From: Halomicroarcula saliterrae
GTDB taxonomy: Archaea; Halobacteriota; Halobacteria; Halobacteriales; Haloarculaceae
DNA: 64,000 nt
Assembly: GCF_031624395.1 (NCBI RefSeq)
Contig: NZ_JAMQON010000005.1
Span: forward strand, 62,001-126,000
Reading direction: 5' to 3'
The notes beneath the pieces are model-generated. The model made no database searches. It saw only the letters and a program-made list of their open reading frames with translations, and was not told the DNA's origin. Position numbers and translations under genes: made by a program. Positions 6,323 through 24,081 of this stretch are shown one piece after another (the stretch's first letter is position 1; every line of letters begins with the position of its first letter).

Positions 6323-6368
6323 CTGGTTAGGACATGTGATTTTTTATAGTTGTATATTACCTATACCC

Positions 6369-7178
6369 ATGTCGTTACTCGCTAACGTAGTGTTGGTGTT
6401 CGTCGCGGGCTTGGTAACAGCGCTGGCGACAGGTATCGGAGTCCTCCCGTTTTTCGTGATAGGGACCGTCAGCGAACGGCTGCAGGTCGCCCTCTGGGGC
6501 CTCGCGTCGGGCATCATGGTATCGGCCTCGGTTTTCGGGTTGGTCGGCGAAGGCCTCGCCGAGGCCGATGGACAAACCGATATCTACCTGATGCTCGGTG
6601 GGCTGATAGCAGGCGCGATTCTCGTCGTCGTCGCCGACCGAATCATCTCGGACCACGAGTTCGACCCGGGCACCTACGAGGAGGCGGATTTCAGGAAGCT
6701 CGTGCTCGTACTCGGAATTCTCACGGTTCATAGCTTCCCCGAGGGGGTCGCCGTGGGCGTCTCCTTCGCCGAGTTGAATCTCGCGGGCGGCATCGAGTTC
6801 GGCCCGTTCGTCGTCCCCGTACTCGCGATATTCATGACCGTCGCGATATCGATTCACAACGTTCCGGAGGGACTCGCCATCTCCATCCCGCTACGGTCGA
6901 TGGGCGTCTCGAACTGGCGGATGGTCTGGTGGGCCGTCTTCTCGAGTCTACCCCAGCCCATCGGAGCGGTACTCGCTTTCGCCTTCGTCCGGGTCGCCAG
7001 AGAGTTCCTGCCCGCCGGCTTCGGGTTCGCCGCGGGAGCGATGATATTCCTGGTCGTCTCGGAGTTCATCCCGGAGGCGCTGGAACACGGGTCCGAACTC
7101 GCCGGACGCGGATATCGGGAACTGGCAATCGGTGTCACATCCGGGTTCTCCATCATGATTCCACTGGTGTTCGTGTAG
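6369..7178 (+). CDS. ZIP-family divalent metal transporter
   Basis: 269-residue membrane protein with about eight helices. The family's paired metal-site motifs in helices IV and V are present: HSFPEGVAVG and HNVPEGLAI. The variable loop between helices III and IV is short and acidic (DHEFDPGTYEEADF). The start is placed at ATG 6369 (MSLLANVVLVFVAG); a frame from 6336 would add residues from the promoter region. It probably imports Zn2+, Mn2+ or Fe2+. It sits just upstream of the iron locus, with its own A+T-rich promoter. Confidence 0.9.
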   Translation: MSLLANVVLVFVAGLVTALATGIGVLPFFVIGTVSERLQVALWGLASGIMVSASVFGLVGEGLAEADGQTDIYLMLGGLIAGAILVVVADRIISDHEFDPGTYEEADFRKLVLVLGILTVHSFPEGVAVGVSFAELNLAGGIEFGPFVVPVLAIFMTVAISIHNVPEGLAISIPLRSMGVSNWRMVWWAVFSSLPQPIGAVLAFAFVRVAREFLPAGFGFAAGAMIFLVVSEFIPEALEHGSELAGRGYRELAIGVTSGFSIMIPLVFV

Positions 7179-7285: not shown

Positions 7286-7301
7286 TTTAGGTGAGCCTAA
7301 A
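7286..7301. promoter_or_regulatory. DtxR-type iron operator
   Basis: TTTAGG-TGAG-CCTAAA is an inverted repeat ending two bases before the ATG at 7304. It matches the consensus of three other sites in this window (10516, 10552, 16110). Its position over the transcription/translation start suggests repression by an iron-loaded DtxR-family protein. Confidence 0.75.
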
Positions 7302-7303
7302 GC

Positions 7304-7640
7304 ATGGCACAGAACAGCGACGCTCCGATGCGTCGAGACACAATCAAATACGGCGGGACGCCGGTCGCCGGGGCAGGGCTTGCGGGCTGTTCGAAGATAC
7401 TGGGTGACGGGCCGGGAACTGAGACGGCACGACGGGGCTCCTACTCCGTGACCATGGACCCGATCGGAACCGCCGAGTTCGACAGCGTTCCGGAGCGCTG
7501 GATGGCGTGGTCGACAGACTACTGCGATATCGGGTTCGTCCTCGGACACACAGATTCCGGTCGGCATCGTCACCGGCCTGATCGGTGGACCGGACTTCCT
7601 CTACCTGATGCGCAGACAGGAACAACTGGGTGAGATATAA
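7304..7640 (+). pseudogene. Deletion fusion: N-terminus of iron-binding lipoprotein joined to C-terminus of FecCD-type permease
   Basis: The first about 83 codons encode a Tat lipoprotein start (MRRDTIKYGG, AGLAGCS lipobox, then SYSVTMDPIGTAEFDSVPERW) matching the tandem binding proteins at 10574-15281. At about 7553-7560 the sequence switches to another frame encoding IPVGIVTGLIGGPDFLYLMR then RQEQLGEI and stop. That is the unmistakable C-terminus of a FecCD/BtuC-type permease. The permease stop TAATG overlaps the ATPase start at 7640. An internal deletion therefore removed most of the binding protein and nearly all of the permease. Confidence 0.8.
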
Positions 7641-8554
7641 TGACGGAAAAACAACACGAAAGTGCACGGACCAACGGGAATATGGCGTACGAACACCATC
7701 GCGACGACGCCACGCTGGTCGGTGAGGAGCTCGTCCTGTCGTATCCGAGCACCGACGGGCCGGTCATCGGTGGCGAGTCGATCAGTGTCCGTCCCGGCGC
7801 TGTAACGGCCCTCGTTGGCCCGAACGGCTCGGGCAAAAGCACGCTTCTAAAGGGACTTGCCAATCAGCTCTCGCCCGACGACGGGTCGGTCCTCGTAGAC
7901 GGGGAGGCGATTCAGTCCTACGGGAGCAAGGAGCTGGCCCGCAAGATGGGGCTGCTCTCACAGGAGAGTACCTCGCCGGACAGCATCACTGTCGAGGACC
8001 TCGTCTACCACGGTCGCTATCCGCATCGGGGATTCTTCGACAGCGTCACCGACGAGGACGAACGCGCCGTCGACAGGGCCATCGAGCTTGCGGGGTGTGA
8101 CCATCTCCGTGACAGCGAGGTCGGCCAGCTTTCGGGCGTCCAGAAACAGCTGGCGTGGATCGCGATGGTGCTGGCCCAGGAGACCGACGTGTTGTTGCTG
8201 GACGAACCGACCACCTTCCTCGACCTCCATCATCAGCTCGAAGTGATGGAGATCATCGAAACGCTCCAGCGGGACAGCGAGATTACGGTCGTCGTCGTTC
8301 TGCACGACATCCAGCAGGCGGCCCGACTGGCCGACGAGATGGTCGCGCTCGAAGACGGCGAGATTCAATCCCGGGGGACGCCCGAGGAAGTCGTCACGGA
8401 AGGACTGCTCGCTGAGGTCTTCGAGATAGAAGCCGAGGTGGACCAGACAGCCCGTGGCCCGCGAATCGAGCCACTCCGACCGCGCCACAGCGGGGACGAC
8501 GAGACGCGCTCGGAGACACCCGTCGCCCGGAGCGACGGCGGAGGCGGGGGATGA
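7640..8554 (+). CDS. ABC transporter ATP-binding protein, iron-siderophore/cobalamin (FecE/BtuD) type
   Basis: 304-residue nucleotide-binding subunit. It has Walker A GPNGSGKST near residue 58, a Q-loop (LLSQEST), a signature loop LSGVQKQ (degenerate from LSGGQ), Walker B VLLLDEP and an H-loop VVVLHDIQQAARLAD. The Tat-binding-protein/FecCD remnant upstream and the iron operators point to ferric-siderophore import. The first ATG (7640) overlaps the previous stop; an internal ATG at 7682 is an alternative start. Its cognate permease has been deleted, so it may be unpaired or borrow a partner encoded elsewhere. It overlaps the next gene by four bases (ATGA). Confidence 0.85.
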   Translation: MTEKQHESARTNGNMAYEHHRDDATLVGEELVLSYPSTDGPVIGGESISVRPGAVTALVGPNGSGKSTLLKGLANQLSPDDGSVLVDGEAIQSYGSKELARKMGLLSQESTSPDSITVEDLVYHGRYPHRGFFDSVTDEDERAVDRAIELAGCDHLRDSEVGQLSGVQKQLAWIAMVLAQETDVLLLDEPTTFLDLHHQLEVMEIIETLQRDSEITVVVVLHDIQQAARLADEMVALEDGEIQSRGTPEEVVTEGLLAEVFEIEAEVDQTARGPRIEPLRPRHSGDDETRSETPVARSDGGGGG

Positions 8555-10515
8555 GCAGCTCGGAGGGGTTCGAAACCGAACTGGACGCCTATCGCGAGCG
8601 AGTCGAGCGACCGCTGTGGCGGCTTTTCCGAGCGTACGCACCGGGAAAAGTGGGCTGGCTCACGGTGGCGCTACTGACGAGCATCCTCGCGTACGGAAGC
8701 TTGCTCGTGACCCCAATCGTGCTGGGGACGACTATCGACGCGGTGTTTACCGGCGAGAGCGCGTACGCGCTGCCGTTCGTTCCCGGCGCGTGGCTCCCCG
8801 CCGAGCCGGCGATGCAGTTCTGGTTCTCCGCGGCAGTCGTCGGCGGGGCCCTGCTGGGCGGCGCAGTGTTCCAGTACGTCCGCGGGGTCGCTATCAACGT
8901 TTTCGCCCACGGCGTGATGTACGAAGTCCGCGTCGACGCCTACGAGAAGATGCAGCGTCTCGACATGACCTTTTTCGACAACAAAGAGACCGGCGAGGTC
9001 ATGTCCATCCTCAACAACGACACCTCGAACTTGGAGACCTTTTTCGACAACGCCGTCGGCGACAGTGTACGCATCTGCGTCATCGTCGTCGGCATCACCA
9101 CGGCGTTGCTGTACACGAACTGGCAGCTCGCGCTGGTCACGCTCGGCGCGGTGCCGCTGCTGGTCGCGTTCACGTGGTGGTTCATGCGCGTCATCGAACC
9201 CAGGTACACCCGCCAGCGTGAAACGATCGGCGACCTGAACACGCGCATCGAGAACGGACTGAGCGGCATCGAGCTCGTCAAGACCAGCAGTACCGAGACG
9301 TACGAGGACGACCGCGTTCGTCGGGTGTCCAGGGATGTCTACGACGCCAACATGGACGTGCTGAAGCTGAGTTACTTTTACCGGCCGGGGATGCAGCTCA
9401 TCACCGGGGCGGCGCTGCTGGCGACGTTCGTTCTGGGTGGACTGTGGGTCTTTTCGGGCCCGCCGCTGTTTTTCACCGGCGAACTCACGACCGGTCAGTT
9501 CGTCGTGTTCATGCTGCTGACCCAGCGACTGACCGGGCCGATGGCACAGCTCTCGAACATCGTCGACTGGTACGAGAACGCGAAAGCGTCTGGCAAGCGT
9601 ATCTGTGGGCTCATCGACGTCCCCGTCCGCATCGGGGATGCCGCGAATCCCATCGCGCTGGACGATGTCGATGGCCACGTCGAGTACGACGACGTGACCT
9701 TCGCCTACGACGGCGGCGAGCTCGGAAGCACCTCGGAAGAGTCGACCAGGGAACACCGTGACTCGGGAGACGGGACTGTCCTCGAAGCCGTCGACATCGA
9801 CGTTTCGCCGGGCGAGACCGTCGCGATAGTCGGGCCGACCGGCGCGGGTAAATCGACTGTCGCGAAGCTACTTCTCAGGCTGTACGACGTCTCCGAGGGC
9901 GCACTCAGCGTCGACGGCCACGACGTTCGAGACGTCCGACTTTCCGACCTCCGCTCGTCTATCGGCTACGTCAGCCAGGATACGTTCCTCTTCGACGGAA
10001 CAATCGCCGAGAACATCCGCTACGGCTGTTTCGACGCCGACCGCGACGCCGTGGTCGCCGCCGCCGAAGCCGCCGAAGCCCACGGCTTCATCGAGGGGCT
10101 GTCGGAGGGGTACGACACCCGCGTCGGCGAGCGCGGCGTCAAGCTGTCGGGTGGCCAGCGCCAGCGCATCGCCATCGCCCGCACCGTCCTGCAAGACCCC
10201 GAAATCCTCCTGCTGGACGAGGCCACGTCGGCGGTAGACACGGAGACGGAGTACCTGATTCAGCGCTCGCTCGACCGGCTGGCGGCCGACCGGACGACGC
10301 TGGTCATCGCTCACCGACTCTCGACGGTAAAAGACGCCGACCGGATAGTCGTCCTCGACGACGGCCGGGTCGCCGAACGGGGCACCCACGAGGAATTACT
10401 GGCCGCGGACGGGCTCTACGCCAAACTCTGGGGCGTCCAGGCGGGTGAAATCGAGGACCTCCCCGAGACGTTCCTCGAACGCACCGCGAGCGGCACCGTC
10501 GGCAGTGAGCCATGA
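8551..10515 (+). CDS. ABC exporter-fold transporter (fused membrane and ATPase domains)
   Basis: 654 residues. The N-terminal type IV/exporter-fold membrane domain (residues about 40-340) includes the coupling-type segment DMTFFDNKETGEVMSILNND. It is followed by a nucleotide-binding domain with Walker A GPTGAGKST (about 435), signature LSGGQRQRIAIAR, Walker B ILLLDEATSAVD and H-loop IAHRLSTV. It works as a homodimer or with a partner half-transporter. Translationally coupled to the ATPase upstream in an iron-controlled locus, it may export a siderophore or, like IrtAB/YbtPQ, import one; the sequence does not decide. An insert rich in Ser/Glu/Thr (about 390-410) precedes Walker A. Confidence 0.88.
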   Translation: MSSSEGFETELDAYRERVERPLWRLFRAYAPGKVGWLTVALLTSILAYGSLLVTPIVLGTTIDAVFTGESAYALPFVPGAWLPAEPAMQFWFSAAVVGGALLGGAVFQYVRGVAINVFAHGVMYEVRVDAYEKMQRLDMTFFDNKETGEVMSILNNDTSNLETFFDNAVGDSVRICVIVVGITTALLYTNWQLALVTLGAVPLLVAFTWWFMRVIEPRYTRQRETIGDLNTRIENGLSGIELVKTSSTETYEDDRVRRVSRDVYDANMDVLKLSYFYRPGMQLITGAALLATFVLGGLWVFSGPPLFFTGELTTGQFVVFMLLTQRLTGPMAQLSNIVDWYENAKASGKRICGLIDVPVRIGDAANPIALDDVDGHVEYDDVTFAYDGGELGSTSEESTREHRDSGDGTVLEAVDIDVSPGETVAIVGPTGAGKSTVAKLLLRLYDVSEGALSVDGHDVRDVRLSDLRSSIGYVSQDTFLFDGTIAENIRYGCFDADRDAVVAAAEAAEAHGFIEGLSEGYDTRVGERGVKLSGGQRQRIAIARTVLQDPEILLLDEATSAVDTETEYLIQRSLDRLAADRTTLVIAHRLSTVKDADRIVVLDDGRVAERGTHEELLAADGLYAKLWGVQAGEIEDLPETFLERTASGTVGSEP

Positions 10516-10531
10516 TTTAGGCCCACCTAAG
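10516..10531. promoter_or_regulatory. DtxR-type iron operator (imperfect, first of a pair)
   Basis: TTTAGG-CCCA-CCTAAG begins immediately after the stop codon of the exporter gene and lies 36 bases centre-to-centre from the perfect palindrome at 10552. Paired sites suggest cooperative binding ahead of the binding-protein operon. Confidence 0.6.
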
Positions 10532-10551: not shown

Positions 10552-10569
10552 TTTTAGGCTAGCCTAAAA
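10552..10569. promoter_or_regulatory. DtxR-type iron operator, perfect 18-bp palindrome
   Basis: TTTTAGGCTAGCCTAAAA is identical to its reverse complement and ends four bases before the ATG at 10574. It is the best example in the window of the TTTTAGG-N4-CCTAAAA motif and should control the binding-protein operon 10574-16021. Confidence 0.8.
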
Positions 10570-10573
10570 TCAG

Positions 10574-11725
10574 ATGTCTAACGAGAACACAGCACGGACG
10601 CGCAGAGACACGCTGAAATACGGCGCCACGGCGGCCGCACTCGGACTGGCGGGCTGTTCGGACCTCGCGGGACAGAACAGCACACCGACAGGCCCGGGAG
10701 AGTACTCGGTGACGATGGCACCGATGGGCGAGGTGGAGTTCGAGAAGCCACCCGAGGACTGGGTGAGCTACCTCAGCACGTACGGCGACATGGGTATCGC
10801 CCTGGGCAAGGCCGATAGGCTCCAGGGCCTGTGGGACCCCGACGGCATGCCGAACGTGTTCTACGACGCGCTGCCGGACGTCGATGTTTCCTTCGAGGAT
10901 GTCTCGCCGATATCCGGTGACAACGAGTTCGACAAGGAGATATTCTACGAACTAGACGCTGACGTCCACCTGTTCGATCCCAACTGGCTCGGCGTGCTGG
11001 CCGACGACTGGGGTGACGCCGACATCGAGGAGATTACCACCGGGGTCGCTCCGTTCCTCGGTAACTACATCCGGCGACGTGGCGACGACTGGCACGACTA
11101 CCAGTACTACTCACTGTACGAAGCCTTCGAAATCGTCGCAGACGCCTTCGATGAACGAGAGCGATACGAGGCGCTCGTCGAAGTCCACGAGGATATGCAG
11201 GCGACCATCGAGGAGCGGTTGCCGCCGTCAGCGGACCGACCGACTGTCGGCCTCGTATCTGTCAATTCCAAATTCGAGGAGGCTGCGTTCTACGTGTATC
11301 CTGTCCAGAACGGGAACAATCACAAACAGTACCGTAACCTCGGGATGCGAGGGGCCTTCGACGACCACATCGAGGGAAACTACGGGGAGTTCGACTACGA
11401 GCAACTGCTTGAGGTCGACCCCGACGCCATCGTGTTCCAGTACGGCTTCTCGCACGTCTCGACCGAGGAGTTCGAGTCCCGGATGGAGACGATGCGTGAA
11501 GATTCGGTCGGCAGCCAGCTTTCGGCCGTCCAGAACGACCGGTTGTACCGCGGTGGCACCTCCTACCAGGGGCCGGTCATCAACCTCTTCCAGACGGAGG
11601 CGGCAGCGAGGCAGTTCTATCCCGAGGCATTCGGCGAGTGGAACGGGACAGAGACACTGCGGGAGGACTCACTCACACTGTTCGACCGACAGCGGGTTGC
11701 AGATATCATCAACGGAGATAGCTAG
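10574..11725 (+). CDS. Tat-exported lipoprotein, iron/siderophore ABC substrate-binding protein (copy 1 of tandem set)
   Basis: 383 residues. Twin-arginine signal (TRRDTLKYGATAAALGLAGC) with a lipobox Cys, so the protein is folded in the cytoplasm, exported by Tat and lipid-anchored. The remainder fits the TroA/FecB-like periplasmic-binding fold: N-lobe YGDMGIALGKAD, interlobe helix with FDKEIFYELDADVHLFDP, and C-lobe ending VGSQLSAVQNDRLYRGG. First gene after the perfect iron operator, followed three bases later by copy 2. The likely ligand is a ferric siderophore, haem or another iron chelate. The motifs are shared with 11728, 12953, 14134 and the truncated copy at 7304. Confidence 0.85.
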   Translation: MSNENTARTRRDTLKYGATAAALGLAGCSDLAGQNSTPTGPGEYSVTMAPMGEVEFEKPPEDWVSYLSTYGDMGIALGKADRLQGLWDPDGMPNVFYDALPDVDVSFEDVSPISGDNEFDKEIFYELDADVHLFDPNWLGVLADDWGDADIEEITTGVAPFLGNYIRRRGDDWHDYQYYSLYEAFEIVADAFDERERYEALVEVHEDMQATIEERLPPSADRPTVGLVSVNSKFEEAAFYVYPVQNGNNHKQYRNLGMRGAFDDHIEGNYGEFDYEQLLEVDPDAIVFQYGFSHVSTEEFESRMETMREDSVGSQLSAVQNDRLYRGGTSYQGPVINLFQTEAAARQFYPEAFGEWNGTETLREDSLTLFDRQRVADIINGDS

Positions 11726-11727
11726 CC

Positions 11728-12960
11728 ATGAGCAACGACAACGACGTACGACACGACGTGCCGACTCGCAGAGACACCCTCAAGTACGGCACCACGGCAG
11801 CAGCCGCCCTCGGACTAGCGGGCTGTTCGAATCTCGCCGAGCAGTCCAGCGGCAACGGTACACCGACCGACAGCGGGAGCTACACGGCGACGATGGCGCC
11901 CGTGGGCGAACTATCGCTCGAAGAACCGCCGTCCTCGTGGGTCGGCGGGCTCGGGTTCACCGCCGACGTGTTGACGGCGCTCGGCCAGGCCGACGGCGCC
12001 GTGGGCATGGCTGATCCCCAATTCTGGTACACCGGTTTCTACGAATTCCTCGACGGGGTCTCGGCCCCAACGAGTGACGAACTGACCCAGATTACGACCG
12101 AGGAACGCGACACAGACCCCGAAGTGGTCTACGAGCTGGACCCCGATCTGATGGCCATCGACCCGAACATCCTGCTCAGTATCTACGGGCTCGACGAAGA
12201 CGAGGCCCAGGAGATACAGGACACCGTGGCACCGTGGTTCGGGAACGAGAGCCGCCGGAAACGGTTCGACGGGTGGACCTACTGGCCCGACGGTGAGGAG
12301 TACGCCTACCTCTCTGTCCCGGAGTACGTCACGGAGTACGGGGCGCTGTTCGGTGAGATGTCCCGTGCAGACGCGCTGCTCGACCTCTACGAGCCGTTCA
12401 TCGAGGACGTTCGGTCACGTGTGCCCGAAGAGAGCGAGCGCAGGTCGATGGCGCTGGTAAACGGCCGGTACAATCCGGAGAACCGCGATGGCTGGGTCGT
12501 CTACAATCCGAAGTCGGAAATCGAGAAGACCTGGGGGAAAAAACAGTACCGGGACCTGGATGTCGTCGACGCTTTCGAAGGCGCCTACGGCGGCGAATCG
12601 TCGGTCAAAGTTGATTACGAGGGGCTGCTGGAGTACGATCCCGACGTGATTATCTTCAACTTCGGAATCACCTACCGCGATTTCGAAGGTGAAAACTATA
12701 TCGACCAACAGCGGGAGCACCTCAAGGACGACCCGGTCGGCAGCCAGGTAACGGCCGTCCAGAACGACGATCTCTACGTCGGTGGGACGCCGTACCAGGG
12801 CCCCATCATCAACATGTTCCAGACAGAGATGGCCGCCAAACAGCTCTACCCCTCGGAGTTTGGCGCCTACCCGGGCTACGGTGAGCTCTCGGCGGACGAG
12901 CAGCTGTTCGACCGCGGGCGGCTGGCGGACATCGTCAACGGAGACATCGACAATGAGTGA
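11728..12960 (+). CDS. Tat-exported lipoprotein, iron/siderophore ABC substrate-binding protein (copy 2)
   Basis: 410 residues, same architecture as copy 1: twin-arginine motif PTRRDTLKYGTTAAAALG, lipobox LAGCS, a Ser/Thr/Gly linker, and a binding domain ending VGSQVTAVQNDDLYVGG and LFDRGRLADIVNGD. It is about 27 residues longer than copy 1 because of an extended linker and an extra loop (RDGWVVYNPKSEIEKTWGKK). The stop overlaps the start of copy 3 by eight bases, showing tight coupling. The divergent ligand loops suggest a different iron chelate. Confidence 0.85.
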   Translation: MSNDNDVRHDVPTRRDTLKYGTTAAAALGLAGCSNLAEQSSGNGTPTDSGSYTATMAPVGELSLEEPPSSWVGGLGFTADVLTALGQADGAVGMADPQFWYTGFYEFLDGVSAPTSDELTQITTEERDTDPEVVYELDPDLMAIDPNILLSIYGLDEDEAQEIQDTVAPWFGNESRRKRFDGWTYWPDGEEYAYLSVPEYVTEYGALFGEMSRADALLDLYEPFIEDVRSRVPEESERRSMALVNGRYNPENRDGWVVYNPKSEIEKTWGKKQYRDLDVVDAFEGAYGGESSVKVDYEGLLEYDPDVIIFNFGITYRDFEGENYIDQQREHLKDDPVGSQVTAVQNDDLYVGGTPYQGPIINMFQTEMAAKQLYPSEFGAYPGYGELSADEQLFDRGRLADIVNGDIDNE

Positions 12961-14131
12961 CGACAGCACGACGTCAACACGCAGAGAGACGCTCAAGTAC
13001 GGCGGCGCGGCTGCTGCGACACTTGGACTCGCCGGCTGTTCGGACTTCGCTGGACAGGGCCGCACATCCGGCACACCAACGGCCAGGTCATACGAAGCCT
13101 GCATCGAGCCCGTCGGCTGCCAGACCTTCCAGACGGTGCCCGAGACGTACATGGTCAACAACGGGGAGTGGGCGGACATGGCCTTCGCGCTGGGCCAGCG
13201 CGACGGGTTCTTGACCGCGACCAACATGATTCCGGGGTTCCTCTTCGAGCCGTTCGGCCTCGACGTGGGGACCCGCTCGGAGACCGAGTCGCTGTCGGCC
13301 GGGGACTGGGACAAGGAGCTGTTCTACGAACTCGACCCCGACATCATCCTGATGGACCCCAACTACATGCACGAGACGGGATGGGACGAGTCCTGGGACG
13401 AATCCGACACCGGGGAGATATCCGAGAACGTCGCACCGTTCTTCGGGAACAACATCCTCCGTCGGCGCGAGTTCCACGACTACACGCTCTACTCGCTGTA
13501 CGAGGCACTCGATAGGCTCGCCGACCTCTTCCAAGAACGGGAGCGATACGAGGCACTCGCCTCAGTCCACGACGGGCTCCAGTCCGAACTCCAATCCCGG
13601 CTCCCGCCGGCAGAGGAACGTCCCGACATCGCCCTGCTCAACAGCGCGTCGGCGCCCGGCGAGGGGACGTTCTACCCGACGGACACCGAGGCCGAAGGCG
13701 TCGAGATGAAGCCTTACCGGGACCTGCAAATCGGGAGCGCGTTCCCGGACGAGATGGTCGTAGAAGGGACCATCGACTACGAGCAGCTGCTGGACGTCGA
13801 CCCCGAAATCATCGTCATCCACTGGGGTATCGCTACGACCGGCGACAGTGATAGTTTCTCGCGAGCGGCGTTCCGCGAGCAGTACGTCGAGCCGATGGAG
13901 CAAGACTCCGTGGGCAGCCAGCTCACGGCCGTCCAGGAGGGCAACGTCTATCCGGGCGCGTTCGGCTCGCAGGGGCCGCTCGTGAACCTGCTCCAGACCG
14001 AGATGGTCGCCCAGCAGTTCTTCCCCGAGGAGTTCGGTGCCTTCGACCCCGAGTCGTTCCCAGAGGTGCCAGCGGCGCAGCGACTGTTCGACCGACAGCG
14101 AGTCACCGATATCGTCAACGGAGACATCTAA
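12953..14131 (+). CDS. Tat-exported lipoprotein, iron/siderophore ABC substrate-binding protein (copy 3)
   Basis: 392 residues from ATG 12953 (MSDDSTTSTRRETLKYGG). A longer frame to 12782 lies in the out-of-frame body of copy 2 and is rejected. Twin-arginine signal, AGCSD lipobox, then the binding fold with WDKELFYELDPDIILMDPN and the conserved end VGSQLTAVQEGNVYPG and LFDRQRVTDIVNGDI. It is acidic throughout. It overlaps copy 2 by eight bases and is followed two bases later by copy 4. Confidence 0.85.
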   Translation: MSDDSTTSTRRETLKYGGAAAATLGLAGCSDFAGQGRTSGTPTARSYEACIEPVGCQTFQTVPETYMVNNGEWADMAFALGQRDGFLTATNMIPGFLFEPFGLDVGTRSETESLSAGDWDKELFYELDPDIILMDPNYMHETGWDESWDESDTGEISENVAPFFGNNILRRREFHDYTLYSLYEALDRLADLFQERERYEALASVHDGLQSELQSRLPPAEERPDIALLNSASAPGEGTFYPTDTEAEGVEMKPYRDLQIGSAFPDEMVVEGTIDYEQLLDVDPEIIVIHWGIATTGDSDSFSRAAFREQYVEPMEQDSVGSQLTAVQEGNVYPGAFGSQGPLVNLLQTEMVAQQFFPEEFGAFDPESFPEVPAAQRLFDRQRVTDIVNGDI

Positions 14132-14133
14132 CG

Positions 14134-15281
14134 ATGAGTAACAACGACAGCGGTACGACCGACACAACGCGCAGAGAGACACTGAAGTACGGCAGCGCAA
14201 TCGCCGCGAGCCTGGGGCTCGCTGGCTGTTCCAATCTCACCGACGACCCCGAGAGGACACCCACGGAGACGCCGACCGGTTACTCGGTCGAGATGGCGCC
14301 GGAGGGGCGGGTCAGCTTCGACGCCGTCCCCGTGCGCTGGGTTCCCTACGGCGGTGACTACGCCGACATGGGCGTCGCACTCGGCCAGGTATCGGGCAAC
14401 CCGGCGAGTACTACACCTACGTCTACGACGAGATCCCCGGCGTGAGCGTTGACGAGGACCGCATCGAGCAAAACGACCTCGTCGAGGCGGAGATGGACAA
14501 GGAGCTGTTCTACGAGATGGAGAACGACGTCCACGTCATCGACACCTGGATGCTCCGCAACTGGTTCGACTGGACGGACGAAGACGTCACGGAAATACGG
14601 GACAACGTCGCACCCTTCGTCGGGAACATGATATTCCGGCGGTCGGACAGCTGGCACGACTACCGGTACTACACGCTGTATCAGGCCTTCGAGAAGATGG
14701 CCACGCTGTTCGACGAACGCGAGCGCTACGAGGCGTTCCGTGACCTCCACGAGGAGTACATCGCCGACATCCAGTCGCGGCTGCCGCCGGCGACGGAGCG
14801 ACCGACAGTCATGCTCACCTACGAGGGGACGAACGAGCCCGAGACGTTTTCGCCGTACCGACTCAACGACCAAGGGACGAGCAAGAAACAGTGGAACGAC
14901 CTGGGTGTGAGCGACGCGCTGGCCGGCACCGGCGTCGAGAACCTGAGCACGGAGAACCGAACTGAACTGGACTACGAGAACCTGCTGGAGGTCGACCCGG
15001 ACGTGTTGCTCGTTCGCGGTCACGAGGACAAGTCCGCCTCGGAGTTCCGCGACACGGTGCTTGGCTACATGCAGGAACACCCCGTCGGGAGCGAGCTGAC
15101 CGCCGTCCAGAACGAGCGCGTGTATCGGGGCGGCTACCTGCGCCAGGGGCCGATTCACAACCTCTTCCTGACCGAGCGAGGGGCGAAACAGTTGTATCCC
15201 GACGAGTTCGGGGCGGTGACCGGCGACGAGGAGCTATTCGACCGCGGGCGGGTCGCGGACATCGTCAACGGAGACATCTAA
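14134..15281 (+). pseudogene. Tat lipoprotein iron-binding protein, copy 4, with a single frameshift
   Basis: The first frame (14134 to about 14390) encodes the twin-arginine signal (TRRETLKYGSAIAASLGLAG) and the N-lobe through YADMGVALGQ. From about 14394 the homology continues in another frame: GQPGEYYTYVYDEIPGVSVD, then DKELFYEMENDVHVID, and so on to VGSELTAVQNERVYRGG and the stop at 15281. Apart from this one-base phase change the gene is full length and well conserved, so the lesion is recent, a sequencing error, or a site of frameshifting. ATG 14442 could start only a leaderless, non-functional C-terminal part. Confidence 0.8.
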
Positions 15282-15283
15282 CG

Positions 15284-16021
15284 ATGAGTACGACCGCCCC
15301 GTACGAGGTCGTCGTGGTCGGTGGGGGCGTCGCCGGCCTTTCGGCGGCCGTCTTCACGGCTCGCCACGGGCTGGACACGCTCGTGGTCGATTCGGGCGAG
15401 TCGATTCTCCGGCGGAACGCCCACCTGGAGAACTTCCCCGGCTTCCCAGCGGGCGTTAACGGCCGGCAACTGCTGGATTTGCTCGAAGACCAGGCAGCCG
15501 AAGCCGGCTGCGAGCAGGTGACCGAGATGGTCAGCCACGTCGAGCAGACTGCCGACGGGTTCGCCGTCGAGACTGACGACGAAGAGCGCTACCGGTCGGA
15601 GTACGTCGTCGCGGCGACGAAGAACACTACCGACTACCTCAGGGGTATCGACGGCGTGGGTATCATCGACCGCGGGAAGGCGTTCGTCGACACCGACGAA
15701 CGCGGACGCACCAGCGTGGATGGCCTGTACGCCGCCGGCCGTCTCGCCGAGAAACCCCACCAGGCCGCCGTCTGTGCCGGCCACGGCGCGGAGGTCGCGG
15801 TGACGATTCTGGAAGACGACGACCGGCCGTTCTACCACGACTGGGTCGCGCCCGAGGGCTACTTCACCGACCGTGATCGAGACCTTCCACCGGGGTGTGA
15901 GGAAATCGGCGACGAAGAGCGTCGCAAGCGTGAACGCCGCTCACTCGAACGGGTGCAAGAGCAGTTTGCCGAGCCACATCCCGACGAGCAGGTCACGCAT
16001 CCGAGCCTCCGAGACGACTGA
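15284..16021 (+). CDS. FAD-dependent oxidoreductase, thioredoxin-reductase-like, short form
   Basis: 245 residues. The FAD Rossmann motif VVVGGGVAGLSAAV is at residues 9-22. A C-terminal FAD-binding motif sits at GLYAAGRLAEKPHQAAVCAGHGA. The protein is some 60-80 residues shorter than typical thioredoxin reductases: the central NADPH domain and the CxxC redox pair are missing. It is the last gene of the iron-controlled operon (two bases after copy 4), so a ferric-siderophore reductase or a siderophore-modifying flavoenzyme is plausible but unproven. The Lys/Arg/Glu-rich tail (GDEERRKRERRSLERVQEQF) is probably helical. Confidence 0.75.
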   Translation: MSTTAPYEVVVVGGGVAGLSAAVFTARHGLDTLVVDSGESILRRNAHLENFPGFPAGVNGRQLLDLLEDQAAEAGCEQVTEMVSHVEQTADGFAVETDDEERYRSEYVVAATKNTTDYLRGIDGVGIIDRGKAFVDTDERGRTSVDGLYAAGRLAEKPHQAAVCAGHGAEVAVTILEDDDRPFYHDWVAPEGYFTDRDRDLPPGCEEIGDEERRKRERRSLERVQEQFAEPHPDEQVTHPSLRDD

Positions 16022-16109: not shown

Positions 16110-16127
16110 TTTTAGGCCAACCTAAAA
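16110..16127. promoter_or_regulatory. DtxR-type iron operator
   Basis: TTTTAGG-CCAA-CCTAAAA ends two bases before the ATG at 16130. Such a position would directly block initiation of a leaderless transcript. The arms are identical to those of the perfect site at 10552. Confidence 0.75.
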
Positions 16128-16129
16128 AC

Positions 16130-16564
16130 ATGGTCGCGGATGAATCCTCCACCGACAAACGACTCGCTCAGCGCATTCCCGAAGAGATAGCCAGCGAAGG
16201 TGCGATTGACGTCGTGGACGAGTTATTTGCCGAGGATGTCGTCGCCCATATCAATCCGCTCGGTGGGGTAGAAGGTCGGGACGAGTTCCAAGAGTTGCCA
16301 CAGCGGATGCGCGCCGCGTTCCCAAATCTTCAGGCGACGGTCGACCAGATAGTCGCGGAGGGCGACCACGTAGCGATGCATGTGACCCTCTCTGGCACGC
16401 ATCGAGGGCCGTTCATGGGCATCAACCCGACCGAAGAGTCCTTCGAAATCGAACACGCAATCTTCGTCCGGTTCGCGGACGACGAGATCGTCGAGTTGTG
16501 GGGCCAGCTAGATGCATTTGGCCTGCTTCGACAACTCGGAGTGATCGAGGCACCGATGGAATGA
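16130..16564 (+). CDS. SnoaL-like / ester cyclase family protein (NTF2-like fold)
   Basis: 144 residues, the usual size of SnoaL-like polyketide-cyclase or ester-cyclase proteins. The typical pattern is visible: an N-terminal helix with LFAEDVVAHINPLGGVEGRD, FPNLQATVDQIVAEGDHVAM in the middle, then GTHRGPFMGINPTEESFE and the C-terminal strand VELWGQLDAFGLLRQLG. The substrate is unknown. It has its own iron operator directly at the start codon, so it is probably induced by iron starvation. Confidence 0.8.
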   Translation: MVADESSTDKRLAQRIPEEIASEGAIDVVDELFAEDVVAHINPLGGVEGRDEFQELPQRMRAAFPNLQATVDQIVAEGDHVAMHVTLSGTHRGPFMGINPTEESFEIEHAIFVRFADDEIVELWGQLDAFGLLRQLGVIEAPME

Positions 16565-18368: not shown

Positions 18369-18737
18369 ATGGCAGATGGTCCTCGGCGAAAACGCGCTCA
18401 TCTGTGGGTGCGGGTGTACGCGGCGATATTCGATGTTGACGACACGCGTCTTCAGGAAGCGATGGAGAACCAATCGGAGAGCGACGAATCGGACACACCG
18501 GGCGACATGGACGGGAGAGACGACACGTCGAGCCACAATGAGAGGGGCGCCACAGTATCTGTTGGCCATCTATATCACACAGCACCGCCAGGACCCGCCC
18601 ATCCCGTCCGGCGCCATCGCGGAGATGCTAGACCGGTCTCCGGCGGCAGTGACGGAGATGTGCCAGCGACTCGGGGAGAAGGGTCTCGTCACCTACGAAC
18701 CATACGAGGGCGTGACCCTGACCGAATCGGGACGTGA
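18369..18737 (+). CDS. Small basic-then-acidic hypothetical protein overlapping the DtxR gene (frame decay or overlap)
   Basis: ATG 18369 lies three bases after the previous stop, the same spacing seen between the two upstream genes. The first about 58 codons (MADGPRRKRAHLWVRVYAAI, then FDVDDTRLQEAMENQ and an acidic tail) have normal haloarchaeal composition. After about 18540 the frame becomes Arg/His/Pro-rich and overlaps the DtxR gene for 200 bases, which looks like read-through in the wrong frame. Either the original stop was lost, or a frameshift separated an N-terminal extension from the DtxR protein. Only the first part is likely functional. Confidence 0.4.
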   Translation: MADGPRRKRAHLWVRVYAAIFDVDDTRLQEAMENQSESDESDTPGDMDGRDDTSSHNERGATVSVGHLYHTAPPGPAHPVRRHRGDARPVSGGSDGDVPATRGEGSRHLRTIRGRDPDRIGT

Positions 18738-18957
18738 ACGAGCCATGACGCTACACGAAACGTACGTGACCGTCTCGTGGTTCTTTCGCGGTGTGCTCGA
18801 ACTAGATGACTACGAGTCAGAAGCGATGGAAGTGGCTGGGCTAGTCAGCCCAGCGGTCGCCGAGCGGCTCGCAGACACGCTGCCACACCCAGACTCAGGT
18901 GCCAGGCTCGAAATCGACGGGACAGACGACGCACCCACCGATAACGACCCGACGTGA
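18538..18957 (+). CDS. DtxR-family metal-dependent transcriptional regulator
   Basis: 139 residues from ATG 18538 (MRGAPQYLLAIYITQ). The N-terminal winged helix is complete: PSGAIAEMLDRSPAAVTEMCQRLGEKGLVTYEPYEGVTLTESG. It is followed by the dimerisation/metal-binding helices ETYVTVSWFFRGVLELDDYE and GLVSPAVAERLADTLPHP. The C-terminal SH3-like domain of longer DtxR proteins is absent, as in many haloarchaeal members. It lies at the end of the iron block and is the obvious candidate to bind the TTTTAGG-N4-CCTAAAA operators. Its metal (Fe2+ or Mn2+) cannot be told from sequence. Confidence 0.85.
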   Translation: MRGAPQYLLAIYITQHRQDPPIPSGAIAEMLDRSPAAVTEMCQRLGEKGLVTYEPYEGVTLTESGRERAMTLHETYVTVSWFFRGVLELDDYESEAMEVAGLVSPAVAERLADTLPHPDSGARLEIDGTDDAPTDNDPT

Positions 18958-20478: not shown

Positions 20479-22026
20479 TTATCGCGAGATGTCCTGCAGA
20501 CCCTGATCGAAGGTTATCGGGTTCGGGTCGTATCCCGTCACGGACGACTGGGTCCCGTTGACTTTGGTCTGGCGCGTGAGAAAGCCGACTGGGACATCGG
20601 TCATGACGATTTCCTGGACCTCGTTGTACATCTCGGCTCGTTCGGACTCGTCGAACGTCGTGCGTCCAGATTCGAGGAGTTCGTCGACCTCCGCGTTCTG
20701 GTACGGGCTGTCCAGGATGTTCTGTTCGGAGTGATAGAAGTTCGTCAGCGTGTCCGGGTCGGGTGGGCTCCTGTAGAACGTCCAGAAACCAGCGAAGACG
20801 TCGAAGTCGCCGTTCTGTTTCGCTTCGTTGAGCGCGCCCCACTCCGTAACCCGGACCTCGATATCGAATCCGACAGTACCGAGCTGTGACTGTAGCACGG
20901 TGACGACGTCGGAGAGTGTCGGCCGGTCGTTGTACGTCCAGAGCGTGATCTGGAGGTCCTGTCCGTCTTTCCGACGAACGTCACCGTCTTGCTCCCAGCC
21001 AGCTTCGGAGAGAAGCGTGGCCGCTTGTTCGGCGTCGTGCTCGTAGGTCTGCAAGTCATCAGCTGACCAGTCGATGCGTTCGGAGTCCCATGGCGCGTGT
21101 GCGGGCGACCCGATTCCTTCGAGAACGGAGTCGACTATGGCGTTTCTGTCGATTGCGTACAGCATCGCCTGTCGGACGCGCCGGTCGGAGAGCGGTTGCC
21201 GGTCCGTATTGAACACCAGAATCTGCGTACCGGGGCCCTCGTTGCGGTGGAGCGTGAGACCGGACTCATGCCCAAGCGTACTGGCTTCTGAACTCGGGAG
21301 ATTGGTCGCAAGCGCGAGTTCGTCGTTCTGCAGTTTTAGCATCCGAGTCTGTGGGTCTTGGACCCGTTCGAGGACGGCACGTTCGAGAGTCGGAACCGTG
21401 CCGTGGTAGCCGTCGTGCTTCGTAACTGCGAGCTGGGAGTCCGGCTGCCAAGAGTCAACCTGGAACGGTCCTGTGGCGATGGCCGACTCGACTTCTCCGT
21501 CGCCGTTGGCCGAGTCCGGGCTGATAATCCCCGCGGGTGGACGCGTCAACTGTCCGGGCAGCGAGGCCAGTGGCTCGCTAGTCGTGACGGCGACAGTTCT
21601 GTCGTCGGCAGCCTCGACAGCGTCTATCGGAAGCCCGGAGAGTCTCGACCCGCTCGTCGAGAACGCTCGTTCCAGTGAGAACACGACTGCGTCTGCTCCC
21701 AAGGCACTCCCGTCGTGGAGCGTGACATCGTCGCGGAGCGTAAACTCCCAGCGCGTGTCACCGTCCGACCGTGACCAGTCGCTGACAAGTTTCGGTTGGA
21801 CCGCACCGTTACTATCGACACCGAACAGGCCTTCGAGGACACCCACTTCACGTAGACGCCACCCACCGTCCAGGTCGATCGGATCGAGTGAGGGTGGAAA
21901 GAACGGAACGCTCAATCTGAACGCGTCCCCGCTGTCCTCGCTGCCTCCGAGACAGCCGGCGACACCGGCTATACCACCTGCAGCAACGCCTCGTAGCAGG
22001 TCGCGTCGTCGTATTGTCGGTCGCAT
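20479..22026 (-). CDS. Tat-exported ABC substrate-binding lipoprotein, peptide/nickel family (SBP_bac_5)
   Basis: 515 residues from ATG 22026 (MRPTIRRRDLLRGVAAGG); an ATG four codons upstream is possible. Twin-arginine signal followed by the lipobox VAGCLGG. The mature protein shows the family-5 binding fold: WRLREVGVLEGLF, then the hallmark DVTLHDGSALGADAVVFSLE region, RQAMLYAIDRNAIVD and LWTYNDRPTLSDV. Family 5 binds peptides, nickel chelates or sugars. It is divergent from the permease/ATPase genes at 22243-26028, with which it forms one transporter. The nickel/cobalt genes downstream favour a metal or metal-chelate ligand, but dipeptides cannot be excluded. Confidence 0.88.
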   Translation of the reverse strand: MRPTIRRRDLLRGVAAGGIAGVAGCLGGSEDSGDAFRLSVPFFPPSLDPIDLDGGWRLREVGVLEGLFGVDSNGAVQPKLVSDWSRSDGDTRWEFTLRDDVTLHDGSALGADAVVFSLERAFSTSGSRLSGLPIDAVEAADDRTVAVTTSEPLASLPGQLTRPPAGIISPDSANGDGEVESAIATGPFQVDSWQPDSQLAVTKHDGYHGTVPTLERAVLERVQDPQTRMLKLQNDELALATNLPSSEASTLGHESGLTLHRNEGPGTQILVFNTDRQPLSDRRVRQAMLYAIDRNAIVDSVLEGIGSPAHAPWDSERIDWSADDLQTYEHDAEQAATLLSEAGWEQDGDVRRKDGQDLQITLWTYNDRPTLSDVVTVLQSQLGTVGFDIEVRVTEWGALNEAKQNGDFDVFAGFWTFYRSPPDPDTLTNFYHSEQNILDSPYQNAEVDELLESGRTTFDESERAEMYNEVQEIVMTDVPVGFLTRQTKVNGTQSSVTGYDPNPITFDQGLQDISR

Positions 22027-22080
22027 CAGTGTTAACAAAACTACTAACGAGTATAATAAAAGTTGCTAACTAGAGCGGCA
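22027..22080. promoter_or_regulatory. A+T-rich control region with GTTAAC/CTAAC repeats, divergent promoter
   Basis: Directly before the binding-protein ATG are GTGTTAAC (22029-22036), CTACTAAC and TTGCTAACTAG, four-to-six-base repeats in an A+T-rich stretch. The GTTAAC element next to the start codon recurs before the CbiM and TauA-like genes (36315, 39592). A shared NikR-type operator is possible. Confidence 0.35.
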
Positions 22081-22242
22081 GTTTTAACATATTTCGCGAG
22101 GTAGTAGTCAATATGTCGCAGTACGTGCTCCGGTGCGTTCTAACCGAATCCCGGAGATTGCAGCCCTCTGTTAACCGTCGACGCCAGGACCGGGTGGCGA
22201 CCAGAGCTATCCAAGCTATCGGACAGATGAGGTGGTGGTGCC

Positions 22243-23193
22243 GTGGTATCTAGCGGGTACGCGATCTATCGTACCCTGACCACGCTCGTGGTCCTCGCGG
22301 GCGTCTCGGTACTGACGTTCGTCTTCGTTCACCTGACACCGGGCGACGCGGCGGCGACGATACTCCGGGCTCGTTCGGGCCGAACCCCACCGGACCACGT
22401 TGTACAGTCTTTCCGGCGGCAACATGGCCTTGACGAACCACTGCACGTCCAGTACGGACACTGGTTACTCGATGTCCTCCAGGGTGACCTGAGCACGTCT
22501 TACTACAGCGACAGGGCCGTCACAGAACTGTTGCTAGCTCATCTCCCGACCACCGTCGAACTCGCCGTCGCGTCGATACTCGTCGCGCTACTCGTCTCTA
22601 TCCCGGTCGGGGTCCTCAGTGCCGTCCATCAGGGCGAGTGGGTCGATATGGTCGGCCAGCTCGGTGCGTTACTGGGGGTGTCGATACCGAACTTCTGGCT
22701 GGGGTACGTACTCATACTCGTCTTCTCGCTGAGATTCGGGCTGTTTCCGGTCGCAGGCACGGGCGATTTCTCGCATCTGGTGCTGCCAGCCGTGACCCTT
22801 GGCAGCGGGATGACTGCGATTATCACACGCGTCGTTCGGACATCGATGCTGGACGTACTCGACGACGAGTACGTGGACGTGGCTCGGTCCAAAGGGTTGC
22901 GTGAGCGCGTCGTAATCTACAAGCACGCCTTGCGAAACGCGCTCATCCCGGTGGTGACCGTCGTCGGACTCCAGTTCGGGTTTGTCATGAACGGCGCCGT
23001 AGTCGTCGAGGTCGTCTTCCAGCGACCTGGGCTTGGAACACTCCTCGTCGACTCAGTGTTCGCCCGTGACTACCCCGTCGTCCAGGGTGTCGTCCTTGTC
23101 ATCGCTGTCCTGTTCGTGTTGACCAACCTCGCCGTCGACCTGACGTACCACTATCTCGACCCACGGATTCGCTCACAGGGGGTCCGACCATGA
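22243..23193 (+). CDS. ABC transporter permease, NikB/DppB type
   Basis: 316 residues with six hydrophobic helices and the N-terminal segment VLTFVFVHLTPGDAA typical of DppB/NikB. The coupling EAA-like loop is EYVDVARSKGLRERVVIYKH with following NALIPVVTVVG. GTG 22243 is the start, preceded by a purine-rich GATGAGGTGG. It overlaps the next permease by four bases (ATGA). It forms the membrane channel with the 23190 protein. Confidence 0.9.
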   Translation: MVSSGYAIYRTLTTLVVLAGVSVLTFVFVHLTPGDAAATILRARSGRTPPDHVVQSFRRQHGLDEPLHVQYGHWLLDVLQGDLSTSYYSDRAVTELLLAHLPTTVELAVASILVALLVSIPVGVLSAVHQGEWVDMVGQLGALLGVSIPNFWLGYVLILVFSLRFGLFPVAGTGDFSHLVLPAVTLGSGMTAIITRVVRTSMLDVLDDEYVDVARSKGLRERVVIYKHALRNALIPVVTVVGLQFGFVMNGAVVVEVVFQRPGLGTLLVDSVFARDYPVVQGVVLVIAVLFVLTNLAVDLTYHYLDPRIRSQGVRP

Positions 23194-24080
23194 ACGACTG
23201 TAGCCACGAGTTGCGGTCGTGGGCGAGACGTTCCCGTAGCTATCTCGTCCGTGGAATGCGCGGGCAACCGATCACGTCTGTCGGGGCGCTTATCGTCGTC
23301 TCGTTGGGCTGTGTCGCCGTCTTCGGCCCTATCCTGACGCCGTACGATCCGGCGGCACAGAATCTAGCGAAGCGGCTCCAGCCGCCATCGTTGGTCCATC
23401 CGCTGGGGACCGATCAGTTCGGTCGAGATATCCTGACCCGCCTCGTCTATGGGGCGCGAATATCGCTTGGTATCGCTGTGACAGTTACCGCGGTCCGTGT
23501 CCTCATCGGGACCGCTGTCGGGCTGGTCGCGGGCTATGCGGACGGGTGGGTAGACGAGTTCCTGATGCGACTCGTCGACCTTCAGTTAGCCTTCCCGGGA
23601 CTGGTCCTGGCCCTCGTGGTCGCTGGCATCCTCGGTCCCAGTCTGGGAAACGTGATGGTCGCACTGGCTGCCGTCGGGTGGGGGACGTACGCCCGTGTCG
23701 TCCGCGGGAGTGTGCTCTCGGTCAAACAGCGCCGGTATGTCGACGCTGCCAGGCTCGCTGGCGCACCGCGGCGACGCATCGTTCGCCGGCACCTCTTGCC
23801 GGCCGTCGTCAGTCCGGTTGTCGTCATCGCGACACTCAATCTCGGGACCGTCGTGGTCGCCACCGCCGGTCTCTCTTTTATCGGATTGGGTGCGCAGCCG
23901 CCGACAGCCGAGTGGGGAACGATGCTCGAAAGCGGCCGGGAACACCTCAGACAGGCGTGGTGGGTCGTGAACGCGCCGGGCGGTGCCATCGCGGTGACGG
24001 TCCTCGGATTCAATCTGCTCGGGGATGGCCTCCGTGACAGGCTGGATCCACGCCAGGAAACGCGAATCGAGGAGGTGTGA
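23190..24080 (+). CDS. ABC transporter permease, NikC/DppC type
   Basis: 296 residues. The N-terminal OppC-like segment (GALIVVSLGCVAVFGPILTP) is followed by HPLGTDQFGRDILTRLVYGA, the family hallmark, and the EAA-like loop YVDAARLAGAPRRRIVRRHL. It pairs with the upstream permease. The start overlaps the upstream stop, and the stop precedes the ATPase ATG by one base, so all three are one operon. Confidence 0.9.
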   Translation: MNDCSHELRSWARRSRSYLVRGMRGQPITSVGALIVVSLGCVAVFGPILTPYDPAAQNLAKRLQPPSLVHPLGTDQFGRDILTRLVYGARISLGIAVTVTAVRVLIGTAVGLVAGYADGWVDEFLMRLVDLQLAFPGLVLALVVAGILGPSLGNVMVALAAVGWGTYARVVRGSVLSVKQRRYVDAARLAGAPRRRIVRRHLLPAVVSPVVVIATLNLGTVVVATAGLSFIGLGAQPPTAEWGTMLESGREHLRQAWWVVNAPGGAIAVTVLGFNLLGDGLRDRLDPRQETRIEEV

Positions 24081-24081
24081 G

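Follow-up and report, generated by a model that had tools for sequence, protein, structure and literature searches.

A row of predicted siderophore-type binding proteins beside an exporter-fold ABC protein in Halomicroarcula saliterrae

A stretch of 64,000 nucleotides from the haloarchaeon Halomicroarcula saliterrae (contig NZ_JAMQON010000005.1, positions 62,001 to 126,000; this whole stretch is the window, and bare positions below are counted from its first letter) carries a tandem row of genes for iron-type substrate-binding proteins (SBPs). Upstream of the row stand a FecE-type ATPase and an ABC protein of exporter fold (EXP), and of a FecCD permease there is only a scrap. Which transporter does the row supply, and what does EXP move? 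The reading we favor, to which we give a probability of about 0.62 on the strength of sequence comparison and structure modeling, is that of an iron-repressed siderophore cassette (copy A): Its SBPs would deliver different ferri-siderophores in trans to the permease of a second, diverged copy (copy B), and its EXP would export the cell's own nonribosomal peptide synthetase-independent siderophore (NIS).

The binding-protein row and the permease scrap

The first three SBP genes are intact, as the preliminary description of this DNA had stated, with open reading frames (ORFs) confirmed on the forward strand, as for all genes placed in the window below, at 10574-11725 (SBP1), 11728-12960 (SBP2), and 12953-14131 (SBP3, for which the ATG at 12953 is the most likely start). 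PF01497 (Peripla_BP_2) scores above its cut-off in all three and in the 3′ piece of SBP4. They are predicted twin-arginine translocation (Tat) lipoproteins: The twin arginine followed by a lipobox cysteine occurs in 86 of the 91 SBP sequences compared, SBP1-3 included. The relatives of SBP1 and SBP2 reach 86% identity in Halosimplex pelagicum and 73-76% in Halosimplex and G029, respectively; those of SBP3 are found in Haloarcula salina, Haloarcula mannanilytica, Salinarchaeum laminariae, Natrialba aegyptia, and others.

The structure that AlphaFold2 predicts for SBP3 (mean pLDDT 88) has the two-lobed fold of the class, its best match among solved structures giving Z = 20.5 over 290 residues (root mean square deviation 3.6), and in this model-based comparison residues 40-388 align with siderophore binding proteins including HtsA, CeuE, VatD, and YiuA. 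A profile of 46 SBPs found 17 matches in the PDB, solved iron and siderophore binding proteins among them; searching the PDB with the SBP2 sequence alone found nothing at E 0.1. Glutamate occupies two alignment columns, E118 and E273, in every one of 46 SBPs. Such glutamates of SBPs dock on arginines of FecCD/BtuC permeases. On this evidence, SBP1-3 are class III (siderophore-type) binding proteins.

A different ligand, whether heme, a corrinoid, or a bare iron-citrate complex, has to be weighed here, since binding proteins for heme, molybdate, and iron-citrate are also found among the fold matches and the fold does not reveal the ligand. The top sequence and fold matches are nevertheless mostly iron or siderophore proteins, relatives of SBP3 lie within NIS siderophore operons, and relatives in Haloferax are assigned to ferri-siderophores by their regulon (PMC11349517). 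We regard a nonsiderophore ligand as very improbable.

The remaining two copies are damaged. SBP4 (14134-15281), previously described as frameshifted, is split between an ORF at 14134-14445 and another, in a different frame, at 14442-15281, and lacks about five codons relative to its homologs; the missing codons together with the frame change are unlike a one-base sequencing slip, and SBP4 is dead. The fifth copy, reported as truncated from 7304, resembles SBP1 (42% over 103 aa, E = 5e-14). Its 5′ fragment (7304-7551), comprising the signal, the lipobox, and about 50 more codons, is fused to the 3′ end of a FecCD gene, into which the DNA passes at about 7542.

This scrap (7542-7640), the last 30-odd codons of the gene, is the only FecCD permease sequence at the locus, in agreement with the preliminary description. 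A run of 136 bases covering the scrap and the first part of FecE shows 87% identity to the FecCD-FecE genes of G010. There, the permease gene still precedes a FecE resembling that of copy A, and its 3′ end is the nearest relative of the scrap; 109 bases of the scrap region are 83% identical to copy B. The scrap ends at a TAA that overlaps the FecE start, and this position together with the DNA match indicates that the trace is real. A short GACAC-type stretch, where the SBP5 end and the scrap overlap, marks the join as it would be left by a deletion between short repeats. Copy A has thus lost FecCD through a deletion that joined SBP5 to the 3′ end of the permease gene, and has kept EXP. The FecE gene (7640-8554) is intact, starting within the stop of the scrap and overlapping EXP by 4 nt; its best NCBIfam match is FecE at 260 bits, which is below the cut-off of 375 and serves for class assignment only.

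A search of the whole genome, suggested in the preliminary description, found three FecCD proteins over the cut-off, at C5:345159-346283 (375 aa), from C1:798005 onward, and at C2:69661. The first two are of the same class as the scrap, and the third is BtuC-like, so that about 12 SBPs of the class stand against two permeases of the class. The C1 ORF (C1:798005-799289; L087 7994-9289) encodes about 431 aa, with some 60 extra residues just before the conserved C-terminal end.

Two diverged copies with probable iron-type operators

The first of these permeases belongs to copy B (L050, C5:338000-357900), which lies on the same contig, 0.27 Mb from the window locus. Its gene order is ZIP, a HEAT protein, an SBP, a flavin adenine dinucleotide (FAD) protein, FecCD, FecE, a remnant of EXP, six SBPs, DUF7551, DtxR, and NifU. 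Of EXP, the remnant retains no more than a few dozen codons at either end; copy B has therefore lost EXP, except for its two ends, by an internal deletion, and still has FecCD and FecE. The left end of the duplicated segment in the window is a ZIP-family metal transporter gene (Pfam Zip, 6336-7178, start perhaps at 6369), 91% identical in protein sequence to the ZIP adjoining copy B. DNA identity between the genes that the copies share is 75-89% (ZIP 84.9%, FecE 79.7%, DUF7551 75.0%, DtxR 79.0%, and NifU 88.7%). With this divergence, and with the FecE of copy A nearer to that of G010 (89%) than to that of copy B, a recent duplication, as first worded, was rejected. A and B are two diverged copies of one iron cassette.

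The preliminary description held that a complete cassette elsewhere, with the same specificity, would make the row redundant. Such a cassette exists in copy B, but its SBPs are different and redundancy finds no support. Protein identity is 37-47% within the row of copy A and 34-52% between the SBPs of A and B, and reaches 86% with relatives in other species; when 91 SBPs were placed in a tree, none of the window copies had an SBP of copy B as its nearest neighbor. The alternative that the row consists of recent tandem duplicates was rejected on the same figures. Since they diverge from the copy B proteins and each is nearer to an SBP of another species, the SBPs of copy A are probably not redundant with the seven of copy B.

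The two copies also share a regulatory signal. The palindrome TTAGGN4CCTAA has four exact sites in the window, and 100 shuffles with one mismatch allowed gave at most two; copy B has five exact and two near sites, and none of 200 shuffles reached seven. Genome-wide there are 16 such palindromes versus one for the reversed control pattern: four in copy A, five in copy B, four near a third Fec locus, and one before the siderophore operon considered below. A DtxR-family gene (18376-18957 in the window, its true start probably further in; Fe_dep_repress, PF01325) adjoins each copy, and the palindromes are most likely DtxR-type operators marking both. In Haloferax volcanii, a FerR signal is reported for every fhu operon (PMC11349517). 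Another palindrome (C1:1049847-1049860; L124 9848) stands immediately 5′ of an ORF for a 545-aa oxidoreductase-like protein, possibly a further member of the iron regulon.

Motif scanning places one of the window sites (TTAGGTGAGCCTAA, 7287-7300) immediately 5′ of the SBP5 start codon. Two others (10517-10530 and 10554-10567) form a pair that brackets, at a distance of 37 bp, a T-rich, TATA-like stretch; only a few bases separate the second site from the SBP1 start codon. The same pair is found in copy B and L052, and with a spacing of 36-37 bp in L070 and L093. An operator pair directly before the row suggests that the row can be switched separately from FecE and EXP.

With a same-class FecCD 0.27 Mb away, divergent SBPs, and operators common to both copies, supply in trans is the better-supported half of the earlier proposal that the row serves either an unlinked permease or the exporter-fold protein. 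SBP1-3 would bind different ferri-siderophores on the outer side of the membrane and pass them in trans to a FecCD, either that of copy B or the C1 copy, with the FecE of A or B powering uptake; the row would be made only once the DtxR-type repressor had left the operator pair flanking its promoter.

Alternatively, copy A may be a decaying redundant copy, its permease and SBP4 gone and the remainder going. There are indeed two lesions at one locus, and partial loss is common among related cassettes (see below). However, SBP1-3, FecE, and EXP are intact, the operator pair and the TATA-like stretch are intact as well, and copy B contains no close copy of SBP1-3. By counting, the ratio of nonsynonymous to synonymous divergence (dN/dS) is roughly 0.08-0.24 for SBP1-3, EXP, and FecE against their relatives, which points to purifying selection, although the branches may mostly predate the permease loss. 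Decay is therefore unlikely, though it deserves more weight than the other alternatives to supply in trans.

The exporter-fold protein and siderophore synthesis genes

EXP (8551-10515) carries ABC_membrane (PF00664) and ABC_tran (PF00005) in one chain, a transmembrane and a nucleotide-binding domain, and is thus a type IV (exporter-fold) ABC transporter. It has no extra domain, and its immediate neighbors, FecE and SBP1, include no second exporter-fold gene, so the paired halves of the IrtAB and YbtPQ type are absent here. Trees place EXP in a clade of 10 (bootstrap and SH-aLRT 100/100). Four members (the window, G023, G009, and Natrialba) lie in Fec cassettes, and six (G005, G004, G015, G011, G006, and G019) lie near IucA/IucC genes.

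IucA/IucC genes are present in all 10 genomes of the clade, and in five of them EXP stands beside or between these genes. An SBP3-EXP pair lies between IucA/IucC genes in G005, G004, and G015, the order in G005 being IucA, SBP3, EXP, IucC on one strand; in G011 and G006, IucA is directly 5′ of EXP. Within the genus, IucA/IucC occurs in nine out of nine genomes with a clade EXP versus six out of 23 without (P = 1.8e-4, Fisher's test, kinship ignored). For these 23, nine best matches were placed by tree and 14 by identity alone, and the genomes G007, G010, and G024 are incomplete. Halosimplex and Salinarchaeum, in which SBP3 relatives are present, have no IucA/IucC, and their best EXP homologs fall outside the clade. 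A glutamine-synthetase-family gene (L053 4133-5488) lies beside the NIS siderophore genes of G005, with similar ORFs in G004 and G015, which suggests a glutamylated precursor.

Since the EXP clade follows siderophore biosynthesis genes, export fits better than import, and EXP probably exports the cell's own siderophore. Its cargo would be the NIS hydroxamate siderophore made by an operon on another contig (L120). Like the iuc operon of Haloferax volcanii, this operon has six genes, two of them IucA/IucC, and an operator of the same kind (at C7:126220); it contains no transporter gene.

The other half of the earlier proposal, in which the SBPs feed EXP itself, would make EXP an importer that moves ferri-siderophores inward in the manner of IrtAB or YbtPQ, here with binding proteins. 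Exporter-fold importers do exist (PMC10246721, PMC10967856), EXP and SBPs adjoin in copy A, and in G005 the SBP3 relative is paired with EXP with no FecCD beside it. But at the Halosimplex pelagicum locus L090, relatives of SBP1, 2, 3, and 4 (tblastn 88%, 73%, 71%, and 74%) surround one FecCD without EXP, the best EXP homolog of Halosimplex falling outside the clade, and copy B dropped EXP yet keeps seven SBPs. EXP resembles IrtAB and YbtPQ in the type IV fold and the link to siderophores; it differs in being a single gene without an extra domain, beside SBPs, in a clade that tracks siderophore synthesis. These differences make export the likelier direction and leave import by EXP little chance of being right.

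Several observations count against the reading we favor. G014, a genome without IucA/IucC, has a FecCD-FecE-EXP-SBP cassette whose EXP relative falls just outside the clade of 10; this misfits an exporter of the cell's own siderophore, leaves room for import or another cargo, and so also speaks for EXP as an importer. Six genomes of the genus have IucA/IucC and no clade EXP, so other exporters must exist, and an RND protein has been proposed as the siderophore exporter of Haloferax volcanii (HVO_A0467; PMC11349517). In the window genome, the contig that carries the RND (MMPL) genes (C2:382-387 kb) lacks all 16 palindromes, whereas EXP adjoins operators. The docking of the copy A SBPs on the copy B permease is something that we infer, and because the genome is a draft of 20 contigs with no reads, the deletion scars cannot be checked against assembly error.

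Cassette variation, possible receptor exchange, and neighboring genes

Across genomes, the general layout is [HEAT protein]-SBP-FAD reductase-like protein-FecCD-FecE-EXP-SBP row. Among 15 fetched loci with a FecCD match of at least 74% (L050, L051, L052, L054, L055, L058, L070-L076, L090, and L093), the operon contains an intact EXP in four (L051, L052, L058, and L093) and a partial EXP in five (L050, L054, L055, L070, and L071); none is seen in another five (L072-L075 and L090), and L076, at a contig end, is undecidable. L054 and L055 also have an intact EXP with an SBP3 about 2.3 kb away on the opposite strand. FecE is missing in three of the 15 (L070, L071, and L090). Partial loss being so common, the window locus, with its missing permease, falls within a range of such cases. 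In Natrialba aegyptia (L093 6330-19022), FecCD, FecE, and EXP are followed by at least 11 tandem SBPs, and this row, cut off where the stretch ends, is the longest among the loci compared.

The ends of the SBP genes appear to have a history of their own. Signal peptides in the window row are 79% identical among themselves and mature parts 42%; when each is compared with the sequence elsewhere that best matches its mature part, the values are 57% and 80%. For DNA, the signal is 82% identical within the row versus 60-75% for Halosimplex relatives, and the mature part 67% versus 80-88%. In 38 out of 56 cases, the signal peptide is nearer to those of the same array than to those of relatives sharing a similar mature part, the reverse holding in 18 (P = 0.010, sign test; rows not independent). 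This comparison omits L055 and L061; also left out of the analysis were five SBPs without a recognized signal, and L091 and L094, which are on the same contigs as L054 and L051. The window (three out of three) and copy B (five out of five) follow the trend, and L083 (none out of three) counters it. Swapping by recombination at shared gene ends is a fair guess with partial support from these data, and a genome-specific constraint on the signal could give the same pattern. Taken further, the locus might be one that shuffles: Siderophore export would be coupled with a swappable receptor row, binding domains being exchanged between conserved signal-peptide and C-terminal ends, each genome's set serving a shared permease in trans, and EXP being the ABC exporter so far missing for the NIS siderophores of haloarchaea. 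We offer this wider idea tentatively, as rather improbable.

The Opp binding proteins of Borrelia burgdorferi belong to a different SBP class, and we know of no exporter gene in that system. There, in a bacterium and for peptides, five binding proteins likewise share few permeases (PMC5736914). SBPs in excess of permeases have already been published for haloarchaea, in the Fhu system (FhuCGD) of Haloferax volcanii (PMC11349517), which the window genome resembles in its numbers of SBPs and permeases. Unlike Fhu, the window SBPs stand in long tandem rows with their own paired-operator promoter, EXP is part of the cassette, and there are two copies with opposite losses. A literature search, which covered few subscription papers, returned no account of haloarchaeal SBP rows with an exporter-fold protein, nor of two copies with opposite losses. 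When the siderophore operon of Haloferax volcanii was studied in 2020, the genes for export, for import of the ferric form, and for reduction were given as unknown (PMC7407949). The cassette names candidates for all three: EXP for export, the SBP row with FecCD-FecE for uptake, and, for the reducing step, the FAD protein. As the permease and receptor rows of a genome can come apart, seeking a permease only beside its binding protein misleads annotation.

Downstream from EXP, the SBP row is followed by the FAD protein, a SnoaL-like gene, two DUF proteins, the DtxR-family regulator, and a NifU domain protein. The FAD protein (15284-16021) is thioredoxin-reductase-like without the CxxC pair and may be a ferri-siderophore reductase. 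The SnoaL-like gene and its preceding operator (16112-16125) together span 16112-16564; no tblastn relative of the gene was found in the other fetched cassettes. A protein of about 330-340 aa, absent from copy A, precedes many cassettes (L050 3893-4909, L052 4527-5537, L054 2021-3031, L058 3049-4038, and L071 14172-15182), and both of those scanned contain HEAT repeats. Adjoining the iron cassette, window positions 20479-26028 resemble, as judged by eye, a dipeptide/nickel-type ABC transporter with a binding protein, two permeases, and a double ATPase.

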